From the NCBI RefSeq assembly GCF_010093205.1, contig NZ_PDWN01000002.1:186001-250000 (forward strand): 64,000 bases of DNA, in the 5' to 3' direction. The notes below the pieces were generated by a model. That model saw nothing but the letters and a program-made list of their open reading frames with translations. It was not told the origin of the DNA and did no database searches. This stretch comes from Pseudoxanthomonas daejeonensis (lineage in GTDB: Bacteria > Pseudomonadota > Gammaproteobacteria > Xanthomonadales > Xanthomonadaceae). The position numbers and the translations under genes are program-made. Below are positions 722 through 10,897 of this stretch, in pieces. The number at the start of each line of letters is the position of its first letter. The first letter of the stretch is position 1.

Positions 722-2008
722 TCAGGAATCGACGCGCAACTCCGGCGCCAGTCCAGCCTTCGCATCGGCCGGGCGACGATAGAACAGCGCCAGCAGCGGC
801 GAGGCCATCAATGTGGTCGCCAGGGTCATCGCGAACAGCATCGTGAACAGCTCCGGCCCGATCAGCCCGGCGTCGAAGCCGATCTTGATGACGATCAGCT
901 CCATCAGGCCGCGCGCGTTCATCAGCGAGCCTACCGCCAGGCTGTCGCGCCAGCCGTGGCCGCTCAGGCGCGCACCGGCTGCGCAGCCGATCACCTTGCC
1001 GGCGACCGCGGCCAGCAGGATCAGCCCGAATGCACCGATGCCGGCACCGGCGAAGGCCTCGAGCGTGGTGTTCTGCCCGGCGAGGGCGAACACCACCGGC
1101 ATCAGCAACACGATCGCGACCGGCTCGATCCGCCGCGCCAGGAAGGACAGCACGCGATCGTCGCGCGGCAGCGCTACGCCGAACAGGAAGGCACCGAAGA
1201 CGGCATGCAGGCCGATCCACTCGGCGAAGGCGGCGCATCCCAGCACGCCGACCAGGATCCAGACCAGCATCGAGGCATCGGGCTCGCCGCTATCGCCGGA
1301 CGTCCGCAACAGGCGGGCATAGAGTGGCTTGAGCAGCAGGAACACCATCGCCACCAGCGCCAGGCCGCCGCCGATCGCCACCAGCACGCCTGCCGGCGAC
1401 CCGCCCCCGGCCAGCGCCAGCACCACCGCCAGGAAAATCCAGACGCAGCCGTCGTCGATCACCGCCGCACCCAGCGCCAGCCTGCCCGGCGTGCTGTGGG
1501 TGAGGTTGCGGTCCTTGAGGATGCGCGCGAGCACCGGGAACGCGGTGACCGACATGGCCGCGGCGATGAACAGCGCGAACGGCCAGTACGCCACGCCGTC
1601 GGGGGCGAAGGAGCGGTACAGCACGGGTGCGATCGCCAGGCCAAGCACCAGCGGCAACGCCACGCCCACCAGGCCGATGGTGGCAGCCGCCCGGACCTGT
1701 GCGCGGCTGCCACCTGGCGCACGCAGCTCCACGCCGACGATGAACATGAAGAGCGCCACGCCCACCGTTCCCAGGCCGGAGAGCGCCGGCAACGACGGCT
1801 TGGCGAACAGCGTGGCGTGCAGATCAGGCAGCCACGCACCGAACACGATGGGCCCCAGCAACAGTCCCGCCATCATCTCGCCGATCACCGGCGGCTGGCC
1901 GAAGCGCCCGAGGAACGCGCCGCACAACCGGGCCATGACCAGGATCAGCACCAGTTGCACCAGCAAGAGCAACGTCGCGTTCACGATGAAACCGCCCCAA
2001 GGCCACAT
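722..2008 (-). CDS. CPA2-family cation:proton antiporter (Kef/NhaS-like)
   Basis: A 428-residue, almost wholly hydrophobic protein with the sodium/hydrogen exchanger fold: about 12 predicted membrane segments, an early FGQPPVIGEMMAGLLLGP block typical of CPA2 exchangers, and MSVTAFPVLARIL in the middle. There is no C-terminal RCK/TrkA nucleotide-binding domain, so it is the membrane unit only. It should exchange Na+ or K+ for protons across the inner membrane. The annotated ATG at 2008 has a weak ribosome site; a GTG eight codons in (FIVNATLL) is an alternative start. It follows the DUF6445 gene by 75 bases on the same strand and could be the tail of the halogenase operon or independent. Substrate cannot be told from sequence. 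Confidence 0.85.
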   Translation of the reverse strand: MWPWGGFIVNATLLLLVQLVLILVMARLCGAFLGRFGQPPVIGEMMAGLLLGPIVFGAWLPDLHATLFAKPSLPALSGLGTVGVALFMFIVGVELRAPGGSRAQVRAAATIGLVGVALPLVLGLAIAPVLYRSFAPDGVAYWPFALFIAAAMSVTAFPVLARILKDRNLTHSTPGRLALGAAVIDDGCVWIFLAVVLALAGGGSPAGVLVAIGGGLALVAMVFLLLKPLYARLLRTSGDSGEPDASMLVWILVGVLGCAAFAEWIGLHAVFGAFLFGVALPRDDRVLSFLARRIEPVAIVLLMPVVFALAGQNTTLEAFAGAGIGAFGLILLAAVAGKVIGCAAGARLSGHGWRDSLAVGSLMNARGLMELIVIKIGFDAGLIGPELFTMLFAMTLATTLMASPLLALFYRRPADAKAGLAPELRVDS

Positions 2009-2083: not shown

Positions 2084-2785
2084 TCAGGGGATCACATCGA
2101 TGAAACTGTTGATCGACAGGCGGCCTTTCTCCGGGTCGGGCGGAGGCACGTTGGCATTGTCGATGGTCCCCGAGTGCAGCGAGTTGCGCCGGTATATCAC
2201 CAGGCGGTTGTAGACGCCGTCGACCTTGTCGACGCGCTCGAACAGCGCGGTGTCCTCTCCGATGTAGCCGGGCTGCGGCGCGTCCGGTCCCTGGCTCTCC
2301 TGCTCCAGCTGGCCGAAGTAGGTGCGCTCGCGCCCCTCGTCCACGTATTCGAAACCGGTGCTGCGGTGCCGGTAGAACGCCGTCCCGCCCCATTCCCCGC
2401 GGAACAGGTAGTGCACCGACGCCAGGCCGAGCCCGGTCGCCGAGTCGATGTGCGGAATGCGCTGCAGGAATGCCAGCTTCTGCGGTGGCTGGGTCACCAG
2501 CGAGTAGTGGCACATCGGGAACGCGAGCCGGGCCTGCGGCGGCAGACCGAAGACATCGCCGAGCAGGGGCCGGATGATCCGCTCCAGGAACGCCTCGTAC
2601 GACAGCGGAGCGCGCACGCGGATGCCGGGGAACATCGCACCCTGGGGCGCGAACTGCGCACGCGCCGCCTTCCTCACCAGACGGTCGGGATCGGCTACCA
2701 ACTGGTCGATCACCAGCAGTGGCGCGCCCTCCGCACCGATCCGCCGCACCTGAAGGCGCAGGCCGGGGTGCGCCTGGATCAGCAT
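2084..2785 (-). CDS. DUF6445 family protein (putative 2OG-oxygenase-like)
   Basis: A 233-residue cytoplasmic protein without a signal peptide or membrane segment. Family features I recognise are the HIDSATGLGLASVHYL block, GGTAFYRHRSTGFE, and a C-terminal YNRLVIYRRNSLHSG stretch. The spacing of conserved His/Asp near residue 115 and the RxxLHSG near residue 205 recalls the double-stranded beta-helix Fe(II)/2-oxoglutarate oxygenases, but this is inference. It starts seven bases after the halogenase stop, so the two are almost certainly co-transcribed. DUF6445 genes are repeatedly seen beside TonB receptors with SapC and tryptophan-halogenase-like genes in Xanthomonadales and Caulobacterales. 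A role in modifying or handling what the receptor imports is possible; no reaction is established. Confidence 0.75.
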   Translation of the reverse strand: MLIQAHPGLRLQVRRIGAEGAPLLVIDQLVADPDRLVRKAARAQFAPQGAMFPGIRVRAPLSYEAFLERIIRPLLGDVFGLPPQARLAFPMCHYSLVTQPPQKLAFLQRIPHIDSATGLGLASVHYLFRGEWGGTAFYRHRSTGFEYVDEGRERTYFGQLEQESQGPDAPQPGYIGEDTALFERVDKVDGVYNRLVIYRRNSLHSGTIDNANVPPPDPEKGRLSINSFIDVIP

Positions 2786-2792
2786 CTGCGCC

Positions 2793-4424
2793 TCACTGGG
2801 TCAGGCCTCCGCCGACGCCCGCGATCTTGCCGGTCACCCGCTCATGCTGCCGGGCACGTGCGTACATCTGTTCCCAGGCCGAGGGCGGCGCCTTGCAGTA
2901 GCTGTCAATGAACTGCTCCTGGCTGGGCATGGCCGCCACAGCGGCATCGATCGGCGTGCGCACGCTCTCGAGCAGGCGCTTGAGATCGGTGTCCGACAGC
3001 GCGCGGGTCAGCGGATGGTGGCTGCGCGGCACCACGCCCTGGCCGAGCATGCAGTGGGTCCAGGAGTCGAGACGGAACAGTTCGTCCTCCCCCTGCCACG
3101 CGTAGCCGGTCTCGCGGAACACCTGGATGCGCTCGGCCAGGCCGGGTGGCAGTTCCATTTCGCGGCACTGCTTCCACAGGGGCTCATCGCGCTGGTTGAG
3201 GTGGTAATGCATCACAACGAAGTCGCGAACGTGCTCGAGCTCCTGGCGGCTGACCTGGTTGAAGCGGTCCACCGCCGCCTGGCTGATGCCCTCTGAAGGG
3301 AAGAACTGCACCAGGCGGGTGACCGCACTCAGGGTCAGGTGGATGCTGGTGGACTCCAGCGGCTCGATGAAGCCGCTCGCCAGTCCGAGCGCGATCACGT
3401 TCTTGTTCCAGGCCTTGCGCCGGCGCCCGGTGCGGAAAGGAATGATCCACGGGTCGCGCAGCGGCTTGGACGGGTTCTCGGCGAGCAGTTTGGCGGTCGC
3501 CTCGTCGTCGGACATGTGCGCATCGGAAAACACGATGCCGCACCCGATCCGGTGCTGGAGCGAGATCTTCCAGTGCCAGCCGGCCTCGTGCGCGATCGCG
3601 CGCGTGTACGGCACCGGCGGCCCATCGGCTTCGGTCTGCAGCGCCACCGCGCGGTTGCTTGGCAGCCAGTGGTCCCAGTCCTCGTAGCCGGTGTGCAGCG
3701 CCTGCTCGCTCAGCACCGCGCGCGCGCCGGTGCAGTCGATGAACAGGTCGCCCTCGATGACCTGCCCATCCTCCAGCACCAGCGACTGCACGTAGCCGCT
3801 GTCCGGGTCCTGGCGTACCTGGGCGATCTTGCCCTCGACGCGCTTGAGCCCGCGGCCTTCGCACTTGACGCGCATGAACGCGGCATACAGCCCGGCGTCA
3901 AAGTGGTAGGCATAGCTCACGTCACGACGCTCCAGCGCCGTGGCCGCCTTGGTCCAGCGCATCGACCACTGCTGGTTGTTCTGGCCGGCATTGAACAGGG
4001 CGAAGCGGTCCTGGAGCGCGGCGACGGTCTCCAGGCAGTAGTCGCCCAGTTCGCTCTGCATGCCGCGGCGGCGGCTTTCCAGCCAGAACTGGTGGAAATC
4101 GCACGACCAGGTGTTCACGCCCGTGGTGCCGAACGGATGGATGTAGCGCGAGCCCGGGCGGATCCAGTTCTCGAACGAGATCGCCAGCTTGAAGCTGCCG
4201 GCAACCGAGCTGAGGAACTCACGCTCGTCGATCTGCAACAACCTGTGGAAGGTGCGGATGGTCGGGATGGTCGACTCGCCCACGCCTACGGTGCCGACCT
4301 GATCGGACTCCACCAGGGTGATGTCGAGCAGGTCGCGGAACTGGTGGGTCAGGGCGCAAGCCGCGACCCAGCCAGCGGTGCCACCACCAGCGATAACGAC
4401 CTTGCGAATACGGTTGGTCTCCAA
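2793..4424 (-). CDS. Flavin-dependent halogenase (tryptophan 7-halogenase family)
   Basis: A 543-residue FAD enzyme. Visible are the GGGTAG dinucleotide-binding motif (13-18), GVGESTIPT near 47-55, a lysine at 79 in GSFKLAISFENW matching the catalytic lysine of PrnA, and IEPLESTS with the glutamate at 357 matching the second catalytic residue. The diagnostic WxWxIP motif reads WHWKIS at 283-288, so proline is replaced by serine. Family members use FADH2, oxygen and halide to halogenate indoles; several from Xanthomonas and Brevundimonas lie beside TonB receptors and act on free indoles rather than a known natural product. I start it at a TTG (4424) behind a strong GGAGG five bases upstream; the open frame continues further upstream but with low-complexity, non-family sequence. 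No flavin reductase gene is adjacent; an FMN reductase lies at 10,346. Confidence 0.85.
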   Translation of the reverse strand: METNRIRKVVIAGGGTAGWVAACALTHQFRDLLDITLVESDQVGTVGVGESTIPTIRTFHRLLQIDEREFLSSVAGSFKLAISFENWIRPGSRYIHPFGTTGVNTWSCDFHQFWLESRRRGMQSELGDYCLETVAALQDRFALFNAGQNNQQWSMRWTKAATALERRDVSYAYHFDAGLYAAFMRVKCEGRGLKRVEGKIAQVRQDPDSGYVQSLVLEDGQVIEGDLFIDCTGARAVLSEQALHTGYEDWDHWLPSNRAVALQTEADGPPVPYTRAIAHEAGWHWKISLQHRIGCGIVFSDAHMSDDEATAKLLAENPSKPLRDPWIIPFRTGRRRKAWNKNVIALGLASGFIEPLESTSIHLTLSAVTRLVQFFPSEGISQAAVDRFNQVSRQELEHVRDFVVMHYHLNQRDEPLWKQCREMELPPGLAERIQVFRETGYAWQGEDELFRLDSWTHCMLGQGVVPRSHHPLTRALSDTDLKRLLESVRTPIDAAVAAMPSQEQFIDSYCKAPPSAWEQMYARARQHERVTGKIAGVGGGLTQ

Positions 4425-4425
4425 A

Positions 4426-4436
4426 ACCCCCTCCCT
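4426..4436 (-). promoter_or_regulatory. Strong purine-rich ribosome binding site deciding the TTG start
   Basis: The minus strand reads GAGGGAGGGGG directly before TT-TTG, giving a GGAGG core about five bases from the TTG at 4424. The nearest in-frame ATG is 90 bases further upstream, without such a site and with a His/Arg-rich translation unlike any halogenase. The family's GGGTAG then falls at residue 13, as expected. Confidence 0.6.
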
Positions 4437-4475
4437 CTTCCATCTTCTTCGTTGCACCGCATGCGCGGTGGATTC

Positions 4476-4498
4476 ATGCCGATGCCGATGCCGATGCC
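4476..4498. repeat. Hexanucleotide tandem repeat (ATGCCG, nearly four units)
   Basis: ATGCCG is repeated three full times from 4476, followed by a near-copy ending at 4498, in the 118-base gap between the cupin gene stop and the halogenase start. It is followed by the palindrome GCATGC-like CCCGCGGGC. The repeat lies in the leader of the halogenase reading frame and could vary in copy number; no function is shown. Confidence 0.6.
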
Positions 4499-4542
4499 CG
4501 CGGGCATGCAGCATCTGAAAATTCTTGCCCCCGCCGGCTCAC

Positions 4543-5565
4543 TCAGCGATTGAGCTTGCCGATGAGCATCGCGCGCATCCTGCGCGCGGCCATCTCGTCG
4601 AACGGGCCCAGGATGTTGCGCGCCGCCTCGGGCAGGTGCGCGCCGGCCTGCCCCGCCGGCCCGAACACGTAGTACTCGAAGACCTCCCGCCAGGCCTGCT
4701 TCTCCCGTTCGGGCCGGTCGCGAATGGTCCACATCGCATGGTAGAGCGCATGCATGGGCGTCGGAATCCAGTCCGGCATGCTGCCCCACCAGTAGTTCAC
4801 CAGCACGGTGAACGGATCGAGGCCCTGCACGTGGTGCCACCACATGCTGGGGATGAAGATCGCATCGCCCGGCTCCAGCACCGCCGACTGCGCCGTCGCC
4901 AGTGCCTCGCGGAAACGCGGATAGCGTTCCAGGTCCGGATCGCGGAAATCCACCATGGTCACCGCCTGCCCGCCAGGCGTCGGCTCCAGCGGCCCCGGGT
5001 AGAGGTTTGCGATCTGCTCCGGCGGGAACAGCGTGAAGCGACGACGGCCCACCGCGCAGCAGGCGATGTTGTTCGGCGCATCGTAGTGGCACGAGGCGGT
5101 GACGCGGTTGCCGATCCAGATGGCCGGTGGCGCCTGCACGCCCTGGGCGGCGAAGCCCAGGTCGTTGTCGGCACGCAGCGTGGGCATGCAGTAGTCGACC
5201 AGCAGCGAAGCCACGTAGTAGGTCGGCGGTCGTGGATCGTCCAGGTATGCGGCCAGCTCGTCGAGCACCTGGTCCAGGCCGCCGCGGCGTACTTCGCAGT
5301 TGAGCGCGGTGCGATCTTCGACATAGAAAGGGCGTCCCGCGGTTTCCGGCGCGCCCCAGTTGTACTGCACCGGGCGGCCGTTGTAGTGCGCGCGCAGGTG
5401 TTCCATCGCCGCGTGCGGCGACTCGCGTCCGGCAGCCACCAGCGACCAGTCGCGCGCGAGCCCCCTGAGCACGGTGGGGGTGCCGCCTTCCAGCAGCTCG
5501 GCGAGCGGCAGCGCGTCGGCGCTGCAACCTTCCATCGTGCGGATCGGAGCCGCCTGGTCGAACAT
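4543..5565 (-). CDS. Cupin-like (JmjC/cupin_8) Fe-dependent hydroxylase-like protein
   Basis: A 340-residue protein of the cupin_8/JmjC-like group. The iron-binding triad is visible as HYDAPNN (H160, D162) and a distal histidine in MWWHHVQGLDP (H244 or H245), with EPGDAIFIPS before it, as in FIH-type 2-oxoglutarate oxygenases. It should fold as a double-stranded beta helix in the cytoplasm. The ATG at 5565 lies two bases after the sapC stop, so translation is coupled; a longer upstream frame overlapping sapC lacks family similarity. Cupin_8 proteins are a standard companion of SapC and halogenase genes next to TonB receptors in these bacteria. Its substrate is unknown; hydroxylation of a protein or small molecule is the family-level guess. 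Confidence 0.85.
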   Translation of the reverse strand: MFDQAAPIRTMEGCSADALPLAELLEGGTPTVLRGLARDWSLVAAGRESPHAAMEHLRAHYNGRPVQYNWGAPETAGRPFYVEDRTALNCEVRRGGLDQVLDELAAYLDDPRPPTYYVASLLVDYCMPTLRADNDLGFAAQGVQAPPAIWIGNRVTASCHYDAPNNIACCAVGRRRFTLFPPEQIANLYPGPLEPTPGGQAVTMVDFRDPDLERYPRFREALATAQSAVLEPGDAIFIPSMWWHHVQGLDPFTVLVNYWWGSMPDWIPTPMHALYHAMWTIRDRPEREKQAWREVFEYYVFGPAGQAGAHLPEAARNILGPFDEMAARRMRAMLIGKLNR

Positions 5566-5567
5566 CG

Positions 5568-6320
5568 TCAGGCGACCTGCGCCCGGCTGCCCTCCTGCTC
5601 GCGCAGGAGGCGTTGCTTCTCGGCAATGAGCCGGCGCATGTTGTGGATGGATGCCAGCAACAGATACACGCCCTCGAGCCACCCGGCGCGGTGCAGCCCG
5701 TGGAGCTCTTCGGCATCCAGCGCAGCCAGCCGGTCGCGATCGATGCCGTACAGGCCCGTCAGGTTGACGCCGTGGTTATCGTCGAAGCGGACGTCCAGTG
5801 CGAGCGGCTGGATGAGTCCGAGCGCGTCGAGTGCGGCGAACATTCCCTTGCTCGCTTCCACGCCATCGTTGATGCCATTGAGCACGCCGACGATGTGCTG
5901 CAGGTAGGGGCTGTGTCCGCCCTGGGCAAGGAACACCGGCTCGCCCTGCCCGGTGACGACCCGCGGATGATCCAGGTCCACATGGATGACCGGCATGTTG
6001 CGCAACTCGCCGTCGACCTGCTGCTCCTGGAAGCCGATCAGGAACGGACCGCGGGAGATGGCGCCAGGCAGGTAGCTGGCGTTCCAGCCGCTGCCCTGCA
6101 GGAACAGGTTCTCGCGATGGTCGAATCCCAGCAGCGCCACCGACTGGAAACTGCCGTCGGCCTCCTTGCGGAAGAAAATCGGGTACTCGCGCTGCAGCTC
6201 CGCGTACTCGGTCGGGAATGCCGGGACCATGCCGACGTTGTCGCCGAACTCCGGGCCAAAACGGGTGGAAATGCGCAGGTCCTTGTGCGCGATGTTGTTC
6301 AGCAGCTCGTATCGGGCCAT
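5568..6320 (-). CDS. SapC family protein
   Basis: A 250-residue protein of the SapC family (named from the Campylobacter surface-layer locus). It shows the usual features: an N-terminal NNIAHKDLRI block, FPTEYAELQREYPIFFRK, then ALLGFDHRENLFL and the GWNASYLPGAI segment, and an ending with LLASIHNMRRLI. There is no signal peptide, so it is probably cytoplasmic. It is the first gene after the receptor terminator and is separated from the next gene by two bases. SapC genes recur beside large TonB receptors, cupin and tryptophan-halogenase-like genes; the biochemical role is not established to my knowledge. Confidence 0.9.
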   Translation of the reverse strand: MARYELLNNIAHKDLRISTRFGPEFGDNVGMVPAFPTEYAELQREYPIFFRKEADGSFQSVALLGFDHRENLFLQGSGWNASYLPGAISRGPFLIGFQEQQVDGELRNMPVIHVDLDHPRVVTGQGEPVFLAQGGHSPYLQHIVGVLNGINDGVEASKGMFAALDALGLIQPLALDVRFDDNHGVNLTGLYGIDRDRLAALDAEELHGLHRAGWLEGVYLLLASIHNMRRLIAEKQRLLREQEGSRAQVA

Positions 6321-6451
6321 TTCGGCTCCAGTTGGTTCTTCGATTCGGGCGCCAGCGCAGGCTTACATGGCGCTCCGGTGTAGCCACGAAGGAGACCATA
6401 TCCACAATGCCGCCTCGCCCGCAAGACGCGACGCGGGATGCCCGGCGACCT

Positions 6452-6486
6452 CAAAAAAAGGGGCCGTCGCCGAAGCGACGGCCCCA
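6452..6486 (-). terminator. Rho-independent terminator after the TonB receptor gene
   Basis: A perfect 11-bp stem, GGGGCCGTCGC (6460-6470) with GCGACGGCCCC (6475-6485), closes a CGAA tetraloop. On the minus strand it is followed by a run of seven T (6453-6459). It sits 35 bases after the receptor stop and 130 bases before sapC, so it should separate or attenuate receptor and downstream-operon transcription. Confidence 0.9.
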
Positions 6487-6520
6487 TCCTGCGCAACAGA
6501 CTTCGATCCTGGAAAACGGA

Positions 6521-9500
6521 TCAGAAGCTGTAGCGCACCCCCATCATGTAACGCGGCGCCTGCTCCACGAGGCGGACCATCTGGTTGTGCGACCTCGCAC
6601 TCCAGCGCACGTCCTCGCCGGTGAGGTTGATCGCCTCCAGCGACACCGAGAGGTGGTCGCTGAAGCTGTACGCCACGGCCAGGTCGAACTGCTTGTACTC
6701 CTCCACGAAGTACGGGTTGCGGTTGTTGCCGTTCTGGTTCGCCGCCAGCAGGTACTCGTCGCGCCAGTTCCAGGCAAGGCGAGCCGACCAGCCGTAGTTC
6801 TCGTACATCAGCACGGCATTGGCGGTATCGCTCAGGCCGCTCAACGCGAACACGTCCGTGCCCGGGTCGGCCGCACGATCGATGCCCACGTCGCCATCGA
6901 CGATGGTGTAGTTGGCCAGGATGCCGAAGCCACTGTCACCGAAGAAGTACTGGCCACCGATTTCCCAGCCGTCGAGCGTGGCCGAGCGCTGGTTGATCGG
7001 GCGGTTGACGTCGAACATGTACAGCGGATCGTCCGCCTCGCCGAAGATGTCGAACTGGCTCTCCATCGAGATCTGCTGGACATTGGTGCCGTTGTACGCA
7101 GGCAGGCCACCGGTGGCGCCTGCGTTGCGCAGCATCGCCAGCGCGGTGAACAGCGTGGTGTAGTTGCCTGCGCAACCCTCACCCGGATCGACGCCCGCCG
7201 CGGTCACCTGGGCTGCGCAGGCACCGCTGTTGAGGAACGCCAGCGCCGCCTGCGCGTCCGGCCCGGAGGTCGGGTCGGTGATGCCGTACAGGTTCTCGCG
7301 GACCACCGTGTTGCCGATGAAGTTGTCGACCTTCTTGCGCCAGTAGGTCACGCCGATGAAGCTGGCCGGAGCGAAGTACCACTCGGCGCCAATGTCGAAG
7401 TTCTGCGACTCCAGCGGCAGCAGCGACGGGTTCTGTGCATCACCGGTGGCGCGGTACTGCTCGCCGAACAGGATCGAACCGCTGGGGCCGCCCACGTTCG
7501 GGCCCGCGTACAGGTTGCCATATGGCGGACGGGCAATGGTCTTGCTCGCCGAGATGCGACCCTTGACATCGTCGGTCAGGTCGATGCTGAAGTCGAGGTT
7601 CGGCAACAGGTAGTTGTAGCTGTTGCTTTCGGAGAACGGCTGCAGCTCATCCGACCGGACGATGCCGAAGTCGTTGTTGGACATCCAGCGGATCGCGCTC
7701 GGCACCTGGATGACCGAGGTCGACTCCAGGTCGGTCTTCTCGTAACGCACGCCGATGACGGCCTGCGCCGGCATGCTGCCGAGCATGAAGTCCTGGTCCC
7801 ACTGGACGTACACCGAATTGGTCTTCTCCTCGACCAGGTTGTCGTTGTCATAGGTCGTGCGCACGCGGGAGCTGATGCTGTCGCAGTCCGGCCACGCCGC
7901 CGGCGCCGTACCGCTGGCGCATGCCTGCTCCGCCCACTGGGCCAGCTGGCTGGCATCGCCCCGCCATGCCTGCCTCGGAGAGCCATTGGCGTTGAAGTCG
8001 GTGAACAGGCCGCCGATGTTGATCGTGTTCAGCAGGTCGACCATGCCGCCCGCCTGGCCGACGTCGTCCACGCCCCAGTTGCCCAGCGTCATCAGGTGGC
8101 CGTGGCCGTCCACGTTCAGGCGCCGCATCGACACGTCGGAAGAATCGATGCCGAACGTGAAGCGCCCACTGTCGAACATCAGCTCGCCGTCGATCCGGCC
8201 CTGCTTGACTTCAGTGTCCTGGCGCGTCGACCAGATACGCAGGATCTGCGTGCCCAGCTGCTCCGGGGCGAAATCAGGATTGACCACGCCATTGGTGTTG
8301 GCCACCGCATCGGCGGTGCTCGGGAACAGCGTGCGCGTCATGATCGGCAGGCCGCCGTTGAACCAGTACTCCTGCGTCCAGTTGTTGGTCGCGCGGTTCG
8401 GTGCGAGCCCGGCGAGGCTGAACGCGGTGGAGCTGCCTCCGGTGATCGGATCGTTCGGACGGCTGTCGACCTTGGTGTTGTGCGCGTCGAAGGTCAGGTT
8501 GAACCGGTCGTTGACGTCCCACCGCGCGTTGAGGCCCAGCGAACCGAGGCTGTACTTCTGCTCGTCGCGCTGCTGCTCGAAGCCGAAGTCCTTGGCGCTG
8601 CCGGCGATGTCGCGGATGTAGATCGGGGTAGCGACCTCGGGATTCCCATCGAAGGTGACATGGCTGAGGCTGTTCTGCAGCCACATCGTCTGCTCGCCAC
8701 GCAGCTGCGAGATCTCGTTGGTCGAGTAGGTGTAGTCCAGGGTGAAGGTAAACGCGTCGGACGGGGCGAACTGCAGCACCGCCTGGCCGTTGACGCGCTC
8801 GCGCTCGAAATCCTGGAACGCGTAACGCAGGTCGTTGGGCATGCTGTAGAGCTGGCCGATGTCCGGCGCGTTCTGCACGACGGCGCCCGGGCGCAACTTG
8901 CCGTCGGTGCCGGTCCAGCGCGACACGTTCCAGCCGTTCTCGCTGGCCTGCACCGAACCGCCATGGCGCTTTTCAAGGCTGGCGTTGAGGCCGATACCCC
9001 AGGTCTTGTCGGCATTGGCGTAGCTGAAGATGCCTGACAGTTCGGGCGTGGCGTCGCTACCCAGGACCTGCGACTGGTCGGTCACCACCTTGGCTCCGGC
9101 GATGGCCACGACTTCGCCGCCGGCGTGGTTGAACGGACGATCGGTCAGGATGTCGATGGTGGCGCCGATGCCGCCGCTGGGCACGTTCGCGCGACCGGTC
9201 TTGTAGACGGTGACTCCGCTGATCGCATCGGAGGACAACTGCGCGAAGTTGAAGCCGCGGGTGCCCGAACCGACGCCGCCGATCTCCAGGCCGCCGCTGC
9301 TGAAGCCATCGGCACCGGGGATCTGGCGGCCGTTGAGCGTGACCATGTTGTAGCCGGGACCGAAGCCGCGCGCGGTGACCTGCGCACCTTCGCCGTCGCG
9401 GCGCTCGATCGAGATGCCGGTGATGCGCTGCAGCGACTCGGCCAGGTTGGTGTCGGGGAACTTGCCGATGTCCTCGGCACTGATCGCGTCGACTACGCCG

Positions 9501-9718
9501 TGCGAGTCGCGCTTGATGTTCATCGCCTGGTCAAGGCTGCTGCGCATGCCAGTGACGGTGACGGTGTCCAGGGTGGTGGGATCGACCTGCGCGCTGGCCT
9601 GCGCACTGGTGGCCTGCGGCTGCGCCGGATCCTGCGCGAACGCGGGATTGATGATGATGACGCCGCCGACGATGGTGAACATCGCCGTCGACTTGAAGCG
9701 CTTCAGCTTGGAATTCAT
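6521..9718 (-). CDS. TonB-dependent outer-membrane receptor (oligosaccharide-type)
   Basis: A 1065-residue outer-membrane transporter. A signal peptide ends near AFA-Q (28/29); a TonB-box-like DTVTVTG lies at 51-57; the plug runs through about 60-200 with AEDIGKFPDTNLAESLQRITG, VTARGFGP and MVTLNGRQ; the 22-strand barrel follows and ends in the terminal phenylalanine of GVRYSF, the outer-membrane insertion signal. The plug signature and length (over 1000 residues) are those of the large Caulobacter/Xanthomonas receptors used for oligosaccharides such as maltodextrins, xylan or N-glycan fragments. There is no N-terminal sigma-regulator domain. It has its own long leader (9719-10,345) with a LacI-type operator and its own terminator, and heads the sapC-cupin-halogenase-DUF6445 set. 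The precise substrate is unknown. Confidence 0.93.
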   Translation of the reverse strand: MNSKLKRFKSTAMFTIVGGVIIINPAFAQDPAQPQATSAQASAQVDPTTLDTVTVTGMRSSLDQAMNIKRDSHGVVDAISAEDIGKFPDTNLAESLQRITGISIERRDGEGAQVTARGFGPGYNMVTLNGRQIPGADGFSSGGLEIGGVGSGTRGFNFAQLSSDAISGVTVYKTGRANVPSGGIGATIDILTDRPFNHAGGEVVAIAGAKVVTDQSQVLGSDATPELSGIFSYANADKTWGIGLNASLEKRHGGSVQASENGWNVSRWTGTDGKLRPGAVVQNAPDIGQLYSMPNDLRYAFQDFERERVNGQAVLQFAPSDAFTFTLDYTYSTNEISQLRGEQTMWLQNSLSHVTFDGNPEVATPIYIRDIAGSAKDFGFEQQRDEQKYSLGSLGLNARWDVNDRFNLTFDAHNTKVDSRPNDPITGGSSTAFSLAGLAPNRATNNWTQEYWFNGGLPIMTRTLFPSTADAVANTNGVVNPDFAPEQLGTQILRIWSTRQDTEVKQGRIDGELMFDSGRFTFGIDSSDVSMRRLNVDGHGHLMTLGNWGVDDVGQAGGMVDLLNTINIGGLFTDFNANGSPRQAWRGDASQLAQWAEQACASGTAPAAWPDCDSISSRVRTTYDNDNLVEEKTNSVYVQWDQDFMLGSMPAQAVIGVRYEKTDLESTSVIQVPSAIRWMSNNDFGIVRSDELQPFSESNSYNYLLPNLDFSIDLTDDVKGRISASKTIARPPYGNLYAGPNVGGPSGSILFGEQYRATGDAQNPSLLPLESQNFDIGAEWYFAPASFIGVTYWRKKVDNFIGNTVVRENLYGITDPTSGPDAQAALAFLNSGACAAQVTAAGVDPGEGCAGNYTTLFTALAMLRNAGATGGLPAYNGTNVQQISMESQFDIFGEADDPLYMFDVNRPINQRSATLDGWEIGGQYFFGDSGFGILANYTIVDGDVGIDRAADPGTDVFALSGLSDTANAVLMYENYGWSARLAWNWRDEYLLAANQNGNNRNPYFVEEYKQFDLAVAYSFSDHLSVSLEAINLTGEDVRWSARSHNQMVRLVEQAPRYMMGVRYSF

Positions 9719-10067: not shown

Positions 10068-10081
10068 TGATAGCGCTAACA
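10068..10081. promoter_or_regulatory. LacI-family-type operator (xyl-box-like)
   Basis: TGATAGCGCTAACA is a 14-base palindrome with one mismatched pair around the AGCGCT core typical of LacI-family repressors. It differs by one base from the xyl-box TGGTAGCGCTAACA that I recall for XylR-controlled TonB receptor and glycoside hydrolase genes in Xanthomonas. It lies 350 bases upstream of the receptor start and no LacI-type gene is in the window, so the regulator would act in trans. The sugar is not determined by the site alone. Confidence 0.65.
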
Positions 10082-10345: not shown

Positions 10346-10897
10346 TTACCTATCAATCGAGTCACGGTAGGCAGCAAGGAATTGCGCCAGCTGCTGGCGC
10401 GTCCGATCGTCGGACAGCCGGCCCTCTGCATCGAAGGCCTGGCCGGCCCGCGAAACCATCAGCCGGCCACCGGACCAGAAGCGCGCACCCAGGGTCCGCA
10501 ATACCGGCAGCCAGGCATCCTGCGCCAGGATCGTGCCGAAGCCACCGGGCGACGCGCCCACCACGGCAACGGGGCGCCCGCCGAATATCGACGGGATGTC
10601 CGCTGCCGGTCGCGACAGCCAGTCGATCGCGTTCTTGAAAACGCCCGGTATGCCGTTGTTGTACTCGGGCGTGGCCAGCAGCAGGCCCTCGCACTCGAGG
10701 ACCCTGGCCTTCAACGCGACCACTGCTTCGGGCAATCCTGCGCGCTGCTCCAGGTCACCATCGTAGAGCGGGATGCCATGCAGGGTCGCCAGTTCAAGCT
10801 CCACGCCCGGCACGGCGAGCTCGCGGGCCGCGCGCAACAGTGCGGTGTTGAACGACCCCGCTCGCAAGCTGCCGGAAATACCGAGTATCCGTGCCAT
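10346..10897 (-). CDS. NAD(P)H-dependent FMN reductase (flavodoxin fold)
   Basis: A 183-residue protein of the NADPH-dependent FMN reductase family (ChrR/YieF-like). The FMN-phosphate loop GSLRAGSFN lies at about residues 9-17, and the TPEYNNGIPGVFKNAIDW block near 75-92 and GGRPVAVVGASPGGFG near 105-120 are characteristic. It reduces FMN or quinones with NAD(P)H in the cytoplasm. It follows pncB by 81 bases on the same strand. It is a possible source of reduced flavin for the halogenase at 2793, but a general quinone/chromate-reductase role is at least as likely. Confidence 0.88.
   Translation of the reverse strand: MARILGISGSLRAGSFNTALLRAARELAVPGVELELATLHGIPLYDGDLEQRAGLPEAVVALKARVLECEGLLLATPEYNNGIPGVFKNAIDWLSRPAADIPSIFGGRPVAVVGASPGGFGTILAQDAWLPVLRTLGARFWSGGRLMVSRAGQAFDAEGRLSDDRTRQQLAQFLAAYRDSIDR

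Follow-up and report, generated by a model that had tools for sequence, protein, structure and literature searches.

Why should an outer-membrane sugar receptor be followed by a set of oxidative enzymes, and what would these enzymes modify? The question is raised by a stretch of 64,000 nucleotides from Pseudoxanthomonas daejeonensis (contig NZ_PDWN01000002.1, positions 186,001 to 250,000; hereafter the window), where genes for a TonB-dependent receptor, a SapC-family protein, a Cupin_8 protein, a flavin-dependent halogenase and a DUF6445 protein follow one another. Judged by gene order and family matches, this locus is a genuine and widely conserved module, namely a sugar-receptor or carbohydrate-uptake (CUT) locus with an oxidative cassette of its own.

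The conservation of the module was assessed with a profile built from 16 module SapC proteins, keeping the best 80 of 381 relatives in the named genome collection; we take their source genera to be all Xanthomonadales. At 78 of these 80 named loci, the receptor, SapC, Cupin_8 and halogenase genes stand in line. The gene-order search that the initial annotation had proposed thus bears out its idea of a conserved module joining a TonB oligosaccharide-type receptor with three putative oxidative enzymes, and the co-occurrence it expected in Xanthomonadales is kept there and beyond. The two exceptions are L137, which lies near a contig end with the receptor out of view, and L112, with SapC alone. 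DUF6445, which had been counted as a member, is indeed present in the window and turns out to be optional elsewhere, as its profile detected it at 31 of the 80 loci (30 of the 78 four-gene loci plus L137). Four places carry paired locus labels (L053/L115, L055/L126, L068/L176 and L070/L190), and counts of distinct loci exclude these duplicates. No recognised inner-membrane transporter or biosynthesis gene was found in the module core at the scanned loci.

Across 121 genomes of the order we found 55 SapC-family matches (two G052 fragments left out). Among the halogenase matches listed, at least 27 of these 55 lie within 6 kb of a halogenase, the rough chance being 0.75% per gene, as do at least 9 of the 21 DUF6445 matches above 150 bits. 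Outside the order, a module-clade receptor stands beside 13 of the 14 SapC matches of 180 bits or more, a limit chosen afterwards; among the six weaker matches fetched, L217 is beside a module-clade receptor and L220 is by another receptor with the second type of halogenase (halogenase 2). The module recurs in other families and in another class. Caulobacter vibrioides, used as a control genome, gave family matches for SapC, halogenase and receptor at the level of the genome rather than the locus, which is consistent with the claimed occurrence in Caulobacterales. Regarding the 16 loci with only a distantly similar SapC (61-93 bits), no module surrounds them, and at one (L034) a halogenase lies behind another receptor 11 kb away.

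Several departures from the usual layout were also recorded. Pseudoxanthomonas koreensis carries on an 11-kb contig a module-type SapC (L112:8402-9193, 78% identical) without receptor, cupin or halogenase, and in Pseudoxanthomonas sp. J31 a complete module is directly followed by a second receptor-SapC pair (L145:6631-18879). At L214 (G240:C5:1076000-1095000), SapC, halogenase 2 and DUF6445 lie beside a sugar gene of the major facilitator superfamily (MFS), with no receptor recognised. The host genome itself holds a second, diverged module (L052, G000:C34:217968-224254), whose receptor is 37% and whose halogenase is 49% identical. Besides, a distant SapC subfamily without the module (L037:9164-18001, L039:2-8350, L051:10792-17985) is found near open frames of 2,400-2,950 codons with no Pfam match, which might encode giant proteins or, in such GC-rich DNA, be open without coding.

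In the window, the five genes lie on one strand, as previously described, and all gave strong family matches (Table 1). The gaps of 2-7 bases reported for them hold for SapC-cupin (2 bp) and halogenase-DUF6445 (7 bp), whereas 200 bp separate the receptor from sapC, with a terminator-like hairpin in between, and about 118 bp separate the cupin from the halogenase, if the latter starts at the likely TTG at 4424 (its frame is open to 4514). The related receptor-SapC gaps have a median of 193 bp (n=78) and 19 of them contain a hairpin by a strict rule, compared with 0 of 400 random control pieces taken inside receptor genes. Given the position of this hairpin after the receptor, transcription of the enzyme genes may be lower than that of the receptor. 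The neighbours scanned at the window locus are the CPA2 antiporter and FMN reductase genes, with no LacI, xylose, GH3 or MFS gene among them. Both were considered as module partners and rejected. The antiporter, initially taken for a related follower, is not a conserved partner, with a homologue near only 9 of the 80 loci (five at 67-83% identity, four at about 31%); as for FMN reductase, a type of enzyme that can supply halogenases, only 2 of the 80 named loci have a close homologue nearby.

Table 1. Features of the halogenase-receptor locus and its surroundings, in window coordinates.
Feature	Coordinates	Strand	Evidence or position
TonB-dependent receptor, TonB-Xanth-Caul type, module-clade, carrying W346/W548/W678	6521..9718	-	TIGR01782 743 bits (cut-off 310)
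SapC-family protein, module subfamily	5568..6320	-	PF07277 223 bits (cut-off 28.9)
Cupin_8 / FIH-like putative 2-oxoglutarate dioxygenase	4543..5565	-	PF13621 229 bits; HYD...H iron site
Flavin-dependent halogenase, Xcc4156/BrvH group	2793..4424	-	Trp_halogenase PF04820 615 bits
DUF6445 protein, putative Fe/2-oxoglutarate oxygenase, optional module member	2084..2785	-	PF20043 271 bits; motif H112xD114...H204...R222
CPA2 antiporter, after DUF6445	722-2008	-	neighbour gene
FMN reductase gene, upstream of receptor	10346-10897		
Xyl-box-like palindrome TGTTAGCGCTATCA, candidate LacI-family (XylR) operator	10068..10081	-	350 bp upstream of receptor start
Intrinsic-terminator-like hairpin (11 pairs + T-run), possible attenuator	6460..6485	-	between receptor and sapC

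Which sugar the locus would respond to is suggested by a palindrome upstream of the receptor. The site TGTTAGCGCTATCA is its sole match in the window (0 in 100 shuffles, expected 0) and has five exact copies in the 3.56-Mb host genome, while the reversed control gave 0. One of these sites heads the xylulokinase-xylose isomerase genes (L197), which have a LacI gene in their vicinity; three others (G000:C1:78636; G000:C9:61333 and 61499) are at the heads of two TonB receptor genes that do not belong to modules. Xylose isomerase and xylulokinase are above the NCBIfam cut-offs both at L173 and in the host, where xylA/xylB scored 674 bits (TIGR02630) and 514 bits (TIGR01312). Because the palindrome upstream of the receptor also marks the host xylulokinase-xylose isomerase genes, the window locus is probably a xylose-regulated CUT locus, and we infer XylR as its regulator. 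The LacI proteins gave no named-regulator match over cut-off. Two features of CUT loci are seen here, a receptor of the TonB-Xanth-Caul type and a linked sugar-regulator site. The Xanthomonas xyl-box reads TGGTAGCGCTAACA, and regulon collections place such genes in xylose regulons. As described in part of PMC1790865, xylose and xylan induce two Xanthomonas receptors, XCC2828 and XCC4120, which have a palindrome in common with the Caulobacter xylose regulon.

The palindrome core TAGCGCTA was found in 68 of the 78 regions examined ahead of the receptor, that of the window being one of the 68. For the second module in the host genome, the site 238 bp upstream is AGTTAGCGCTAACA. However, the motif is not universal: only 8 of 24 module-labelled loci have it, exactly or as a near variant, and L053 and the loci of most other families are without it. 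We also looked at what recurs in the flanks of 98 distinct module loci, identifying the ten commonest families (clustering open reading frames of at least 150 aa). These were GH3 (23), LacI regulators (14), xylulokinase (12), xylose isomerase (8) and sugar MFS (6), together with others found mostly in Xanthomonas: amino-acid permease (21), metallo-beta-lactamase-fold, MFS and trypsin-like proteins (13 each) and M1 peptidase (12). GH3-flanked modules without xylose genes among the listed flanks also occur.

The best PDB matches of the window halogenase are 9luq, 6y1w (Xcc4156, 517 bits) and 6frl (BrvH, 421 bits), its solved relatives being mostly named tryptophan halogenases. The flavin-halogenase motif set (GxGxxG, Lys, Glu and WxWxI) is fully present, including the Lys and Glu of catalytic role, and G14-G16, G19, K80, E355 and W284/W286/I288 (WxWxI) are invariant in 21 aligned halogenases of both types. 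By these matches, the enzyme is a member of the Xcc4156/BrvH brominase group, with a predicted halogenating activity such as the literature documents for Xcc4156 and BrvH themselves. A module halogenase piece from Xanthomonas arboricola NL_P126 (L031, G054) scored 683 bits over 341 residues against Xcc4156, the next best being 362; this second-type-module halogenase is interrupted (L031:10323-12471). According to part of PMC7336383, Xcc4156 acts on test substrates by bromination only, and its site is open and may accept peptides, its native substrate being not known. The open active site and the lack of action on free tryptophan are described for Xcc4156 and BrvH, and a peptide substrate proposed, in parts of PMC7336383 and PMC5945002; the latter also notes that MibH halogenates Trp inside a peptide. 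In titles and abstract starts, a coverage outside which most subscription journals fall, we found no link between this halogenase group and TonB receptors. The accessible part of PMC11337851 has halogenase and TonB-receptor terms in unrelated places, and speculates about an unknown tryptophan halogenase as a possible modulator of virus-host receptor interactions.

The nearest solved relatives of the Cupin_8 protein are FIH (E 2.5e-20) and JMJD5. Its residues H161, D163, H245 and R176 (numbering includes one residue before Met) are kept in 80 of 80 sequences, and R176 aligns with the basic 2-oxoglutarate (2OG) residue of FIH, which we take to be K214. The window cupin is thus a putative 2OG hydroxylase of the FIH-like/JmjC type, and its relatives suggest a protein substrate, since FIH and JMJD5 act on proteins. 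DUF6445 carries an HxD...H...R motif (H112 in 49, D114 in 49, H204 in 48 and R222 in 51 of 55 sequences) and gave no other Pfam match and no PDB match; by the motif, it is a putative Fe/2-oxoglutarate oxygenase. Regarding SapC, its AlphaFold model is confident, with a mean predicted local distance difference test score (pLDDT) of 92.9. Nothing was retrieved with it by Foldseek at E 0.01 or better against PDB and BFVD, and the 16-sequence SapC profile gave no credible PDB match. Two of its aromatic residues, W79 and Y83, are invariant (16/16 and 58/58 aligned members).

The receptors of the module form a clade. In a tree of 68 receptors, where the flanks of 37 rows were mostly not fetched, 24 of the 25 module-labelled receptors and the halogenase-only L054 fall in one group (support 99, midpoint root). 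Elsewhere in the tree are the halogenase-linked receptors L034, L105, L106, L107 and L108, as well as L109, which has cupin and halogenase and no SapC. We also sampled from the side of the receptor, with a receptor-profile search of two further families and 60 loci hand-chosen across the score range, of which 57 have a clade receptor above 700 bits. Within the fetched stretch downstream of these 57, halogenase is present in 42 and SapC in 38, and none of the enzymes in 14. Partial sets comprise halogenase 2 with SapC, the first type (halogenase 1) alone, and both halogenases, so each enzyme gene is absent near some clade receptors. The same profile found few new receptors in 321 genomes of the class, two candidates per genome being scored. 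The receptor itself, with a model of mean pLDDT 81, had no credible PDB match.

From the side of the halogenase, a TonB receptor lies directly beside 7 of 8 hand-picked non-module halogenases, L286 being the exception. Two of these seven receptors were found by profile and five are of the CarboxypepD_reg/OMP_b-brl_4 type; some may be orthologues. As the halogenases adjoin unrelated receptor types, the receptor, and not one sugar, seems to be the common factor. At L281-L285, halogenases lie directly behind CarboxypepD_reg / OMP_b-brl_4 TonB receptors, a class distinct from that of the module, and at L108:3848-15226 three or four consecutive halogenase genes adjoin a TonB receptor that is divergent and has the xyl-box-like site TGTTAGCGCTAACC.

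What, then, would the cassette act on? With no inner-membrane transporter or biosynthesis gene recognised in the core, the receptor and SapC are the only constant products not recognised as enzymes. Our tentative proposal is that the receptor polypeptide is a putative substrate of the module enzymes, a possibility that we hold to be real although short of even. The proteins acted on by the cupin relatives and the peptide substrate proposed for Xcc4156/BrvH both speak for it. XylR would control receptor and enzymes jointly, and the hairpin behind the receptor would keep the enzyme amounts below those of the receptor. SapC would escort or present the substrate, and the cytoplasmic halogenase and cupin, optionally with DUF6445 or a second halogenase, would modify the receptor polypeptide before its export. 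The modified sites would most likely be surface-loop residues, with W548 as the lead, so that sugar binding is tuned or the loop protected. The substrate step is the weakest part of this explanation, and its specific form, in which a dedicated and co-regulated set of enzymes post-translationally brominates (and hydroxylates) an outer-membrane transporter at a tryptophan of a surface loop, we consider unlikely as it stands.

Three tryptophans, W346, W548 and W678, are common to all module receptors (102/102 aligned, 98/98 distinct) and, by the strand order in the model, are inferred to lie on the outer side. In 42 other receptors, W is found at 346 in 2, at 678 in 1 and at 548 in 12. The strict conservation of W346 and W678 was considered as a modification signature and rejected, as both persist in enzyme-less receptors (14/14 and 13/14) and in the genomes G679 and G725. 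W548 behaves differently. In 139 distinct halogenase-1 receptors, 130 columns reach a conservation of 95% or more; of these, W548 alone is retained in no more than one of the five scattered enzyme-less receptors, and none of the 17 receptors having halogenase 2 and SapC without halogenase 1 has it. One enzyme-less receptor (L262) has LGDF where its kin have LGDW. For four of these five scattered receptors, the genome has halogenases elsewhere (4-16 matches; the fifth genome, G347, was outside that search), and such enzymes might act from afar. We further placed 108 receptors in a tree, drawn from the module loci, from the samples outside and from one in eight of the named loci, with a single place represented twice. 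Of these, 72 combine halogenase 1 with the W548 motif and 30 have neither of the two; 5 show just the motif, contig ends truncating two of them, and the remaining one has the halogenase without the motif, but with a W at this position. Five halogenase-1 receptors have this W shifted by three residues. The motif rule was set after the data were seen, the loop aligns poorly and relatedness is incompletely controlled, and W548 is a lead candidate only.

A number of observations weigh against a modified receptor. W346 is kept with or without the enzymes (9/9 in one enzyme-less group, 5/5 scattered and 17/17 halogenase-2-only receptors), and W678 is kept in 13 of 14 enzyme-less and 7 of 17 halogenase-2-only receptors. 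The nearly complete genomes G679 and G725, with no halogenase at E 1e-60, have a clade receptor that keeps W346 and W678, with W aligned at 548 in a different motif. Within one enzyme-less group, W is aligned at 548 in 8 of 9 receptors. Halogenase 1 was lost with W548 kept in two lineages (L263 and L234/L235), and there is only one independent co-loss (L262, W to F), most of the W548 signal being a deep split. The column search found no receptor column that tracks the cupin, and the 14 of 57 clade receptors without an enzyme gene in the fetched downstream stretch point the same way. Moreover, invariant loop tryptophans would be equally expected of a sugar-binding platform. It is because of the post hoc motif rule, the deep split, the single co-loss and the two losses that kept W548 that the receptor model is held no more firmly than stated above.

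One could argue that the cassette acts on what the receptor brings in, that is, imported xylo-oligosaccharides with feruloyl/coumaroyl esters, or another plant aromatic, whose aromatic part would be oxidised or halogenated by the cytoplasmic enzymes. This fits the xylose context of the loci, the induction of XCC2828 and XCC4120 by xylose and xylan (in part of PMC1790865), the tryptophan-halogenase names of the solved relatives and the amino-acid permease, MFS and sugar MFS genes that recur near some of the 98 distinct modules. However, no transporter or esterase is constant among the ten commonest flank families identified, some GH3-adjacent modules lack the listed xylose genes, the halogenases also adjoin unrelated receptor types, and a halogenated aromatic would have no obvious catabolic use. 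We regard aromatic import as rather unlikely. A second possibility is that the enzymes make a diffusible halogenated or hydroxylated ligand or signal, from a metabolite or a small peptide, that the receptor retrieves. Sets of halogenase, oxygenase and receptor resemble siderophore logic, and no core gene supplies the enzymes with another substrate; on the other hand, the flank families identified include none for making a scaffold and the upstream site is shared with xylose genes, which makes such a ligand improbable. The clustering of flanks covered reading frames of 150 aa or more, so a gene for a small peptide may have escaped it. SapC, rather than the receptor, might be the protein substrate, and modified SapC would then act on the receptor or on a sugar signal. 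Its invariant W79 and Y83 would suit this role, but they may be structural, and 5 of the 57 clade receptors have halogenase 1 and no SapC nearby (L225-L227, L266 and L270), so that we find it very doubtful. Finally, that the genes are co-regulated stress or housekeeping passengers of sugar loci, sharing no substrate, would account for the individual absence of enzyme genes near some clade receptors and for the 14 of 57 that stand alone, and is just as doubtful given that the order is kept at 78 of 80 named loci despite varied flanks, as well as in other families and another class.

These results assign the Xcc4156/BrvH group to a conserved receptor module with a xylose link and, for 7 of the 8 other halogenases looked at, to a place next to a TonB receptor, which narrows the candidate targets of these orphan brominases to the receptor, SapC or a sugar-borne aromatic. 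A putative FIH-like protein hydroxylase and SapC, a protein with no recognised fold, are likewise placed in a defined bacterial pathway. If true, loop-tryptophan bromination would supply the native function so far lacking for the Xcc4156/BrvH group, and TonB receptors would gain a new kind of protein modification.

In comparison with known systems, the window enzyme shares its family with Xcc4156 (6y1w) and BrvH (6frl), and differs from the Xcc4156/L031 type by an insertion near residue 150 and by S for P after WxWxI. MibH (5uao), which works in lanthipeptide biosynthesis, is also a flavin halogenase, at a greater distance from the window enzyme (188 bits); no lanthipeptide gene or gene for another ribosomally synthesised and post-translationally modified peptide was recognised among the proteins scanned, a scan that did not search short reading frames and precursor motifs. 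The window cupin resembles FIH (the HIF-1alpha inhibitor) and JMJD5 in the iron triad, the basic residue, WWHH and the Asn of the NFW/NYW motif, and differs from them in being bacterial and in lying in a sugar-uptake locus. With the Xanthomonas CUT loci, such as the XCC2828 xylose locus, which is conserved with Caulobacter CC0999 (part of PMC1790865), the window locus shares a sugar-type TonB receptor and a palindromic xylose motif upstream; halogenase and SapC do not occur in the main text of that paper. The nearest known kind of system is the CUT locus, of which the oxidative cassette makes the window locus a variant.

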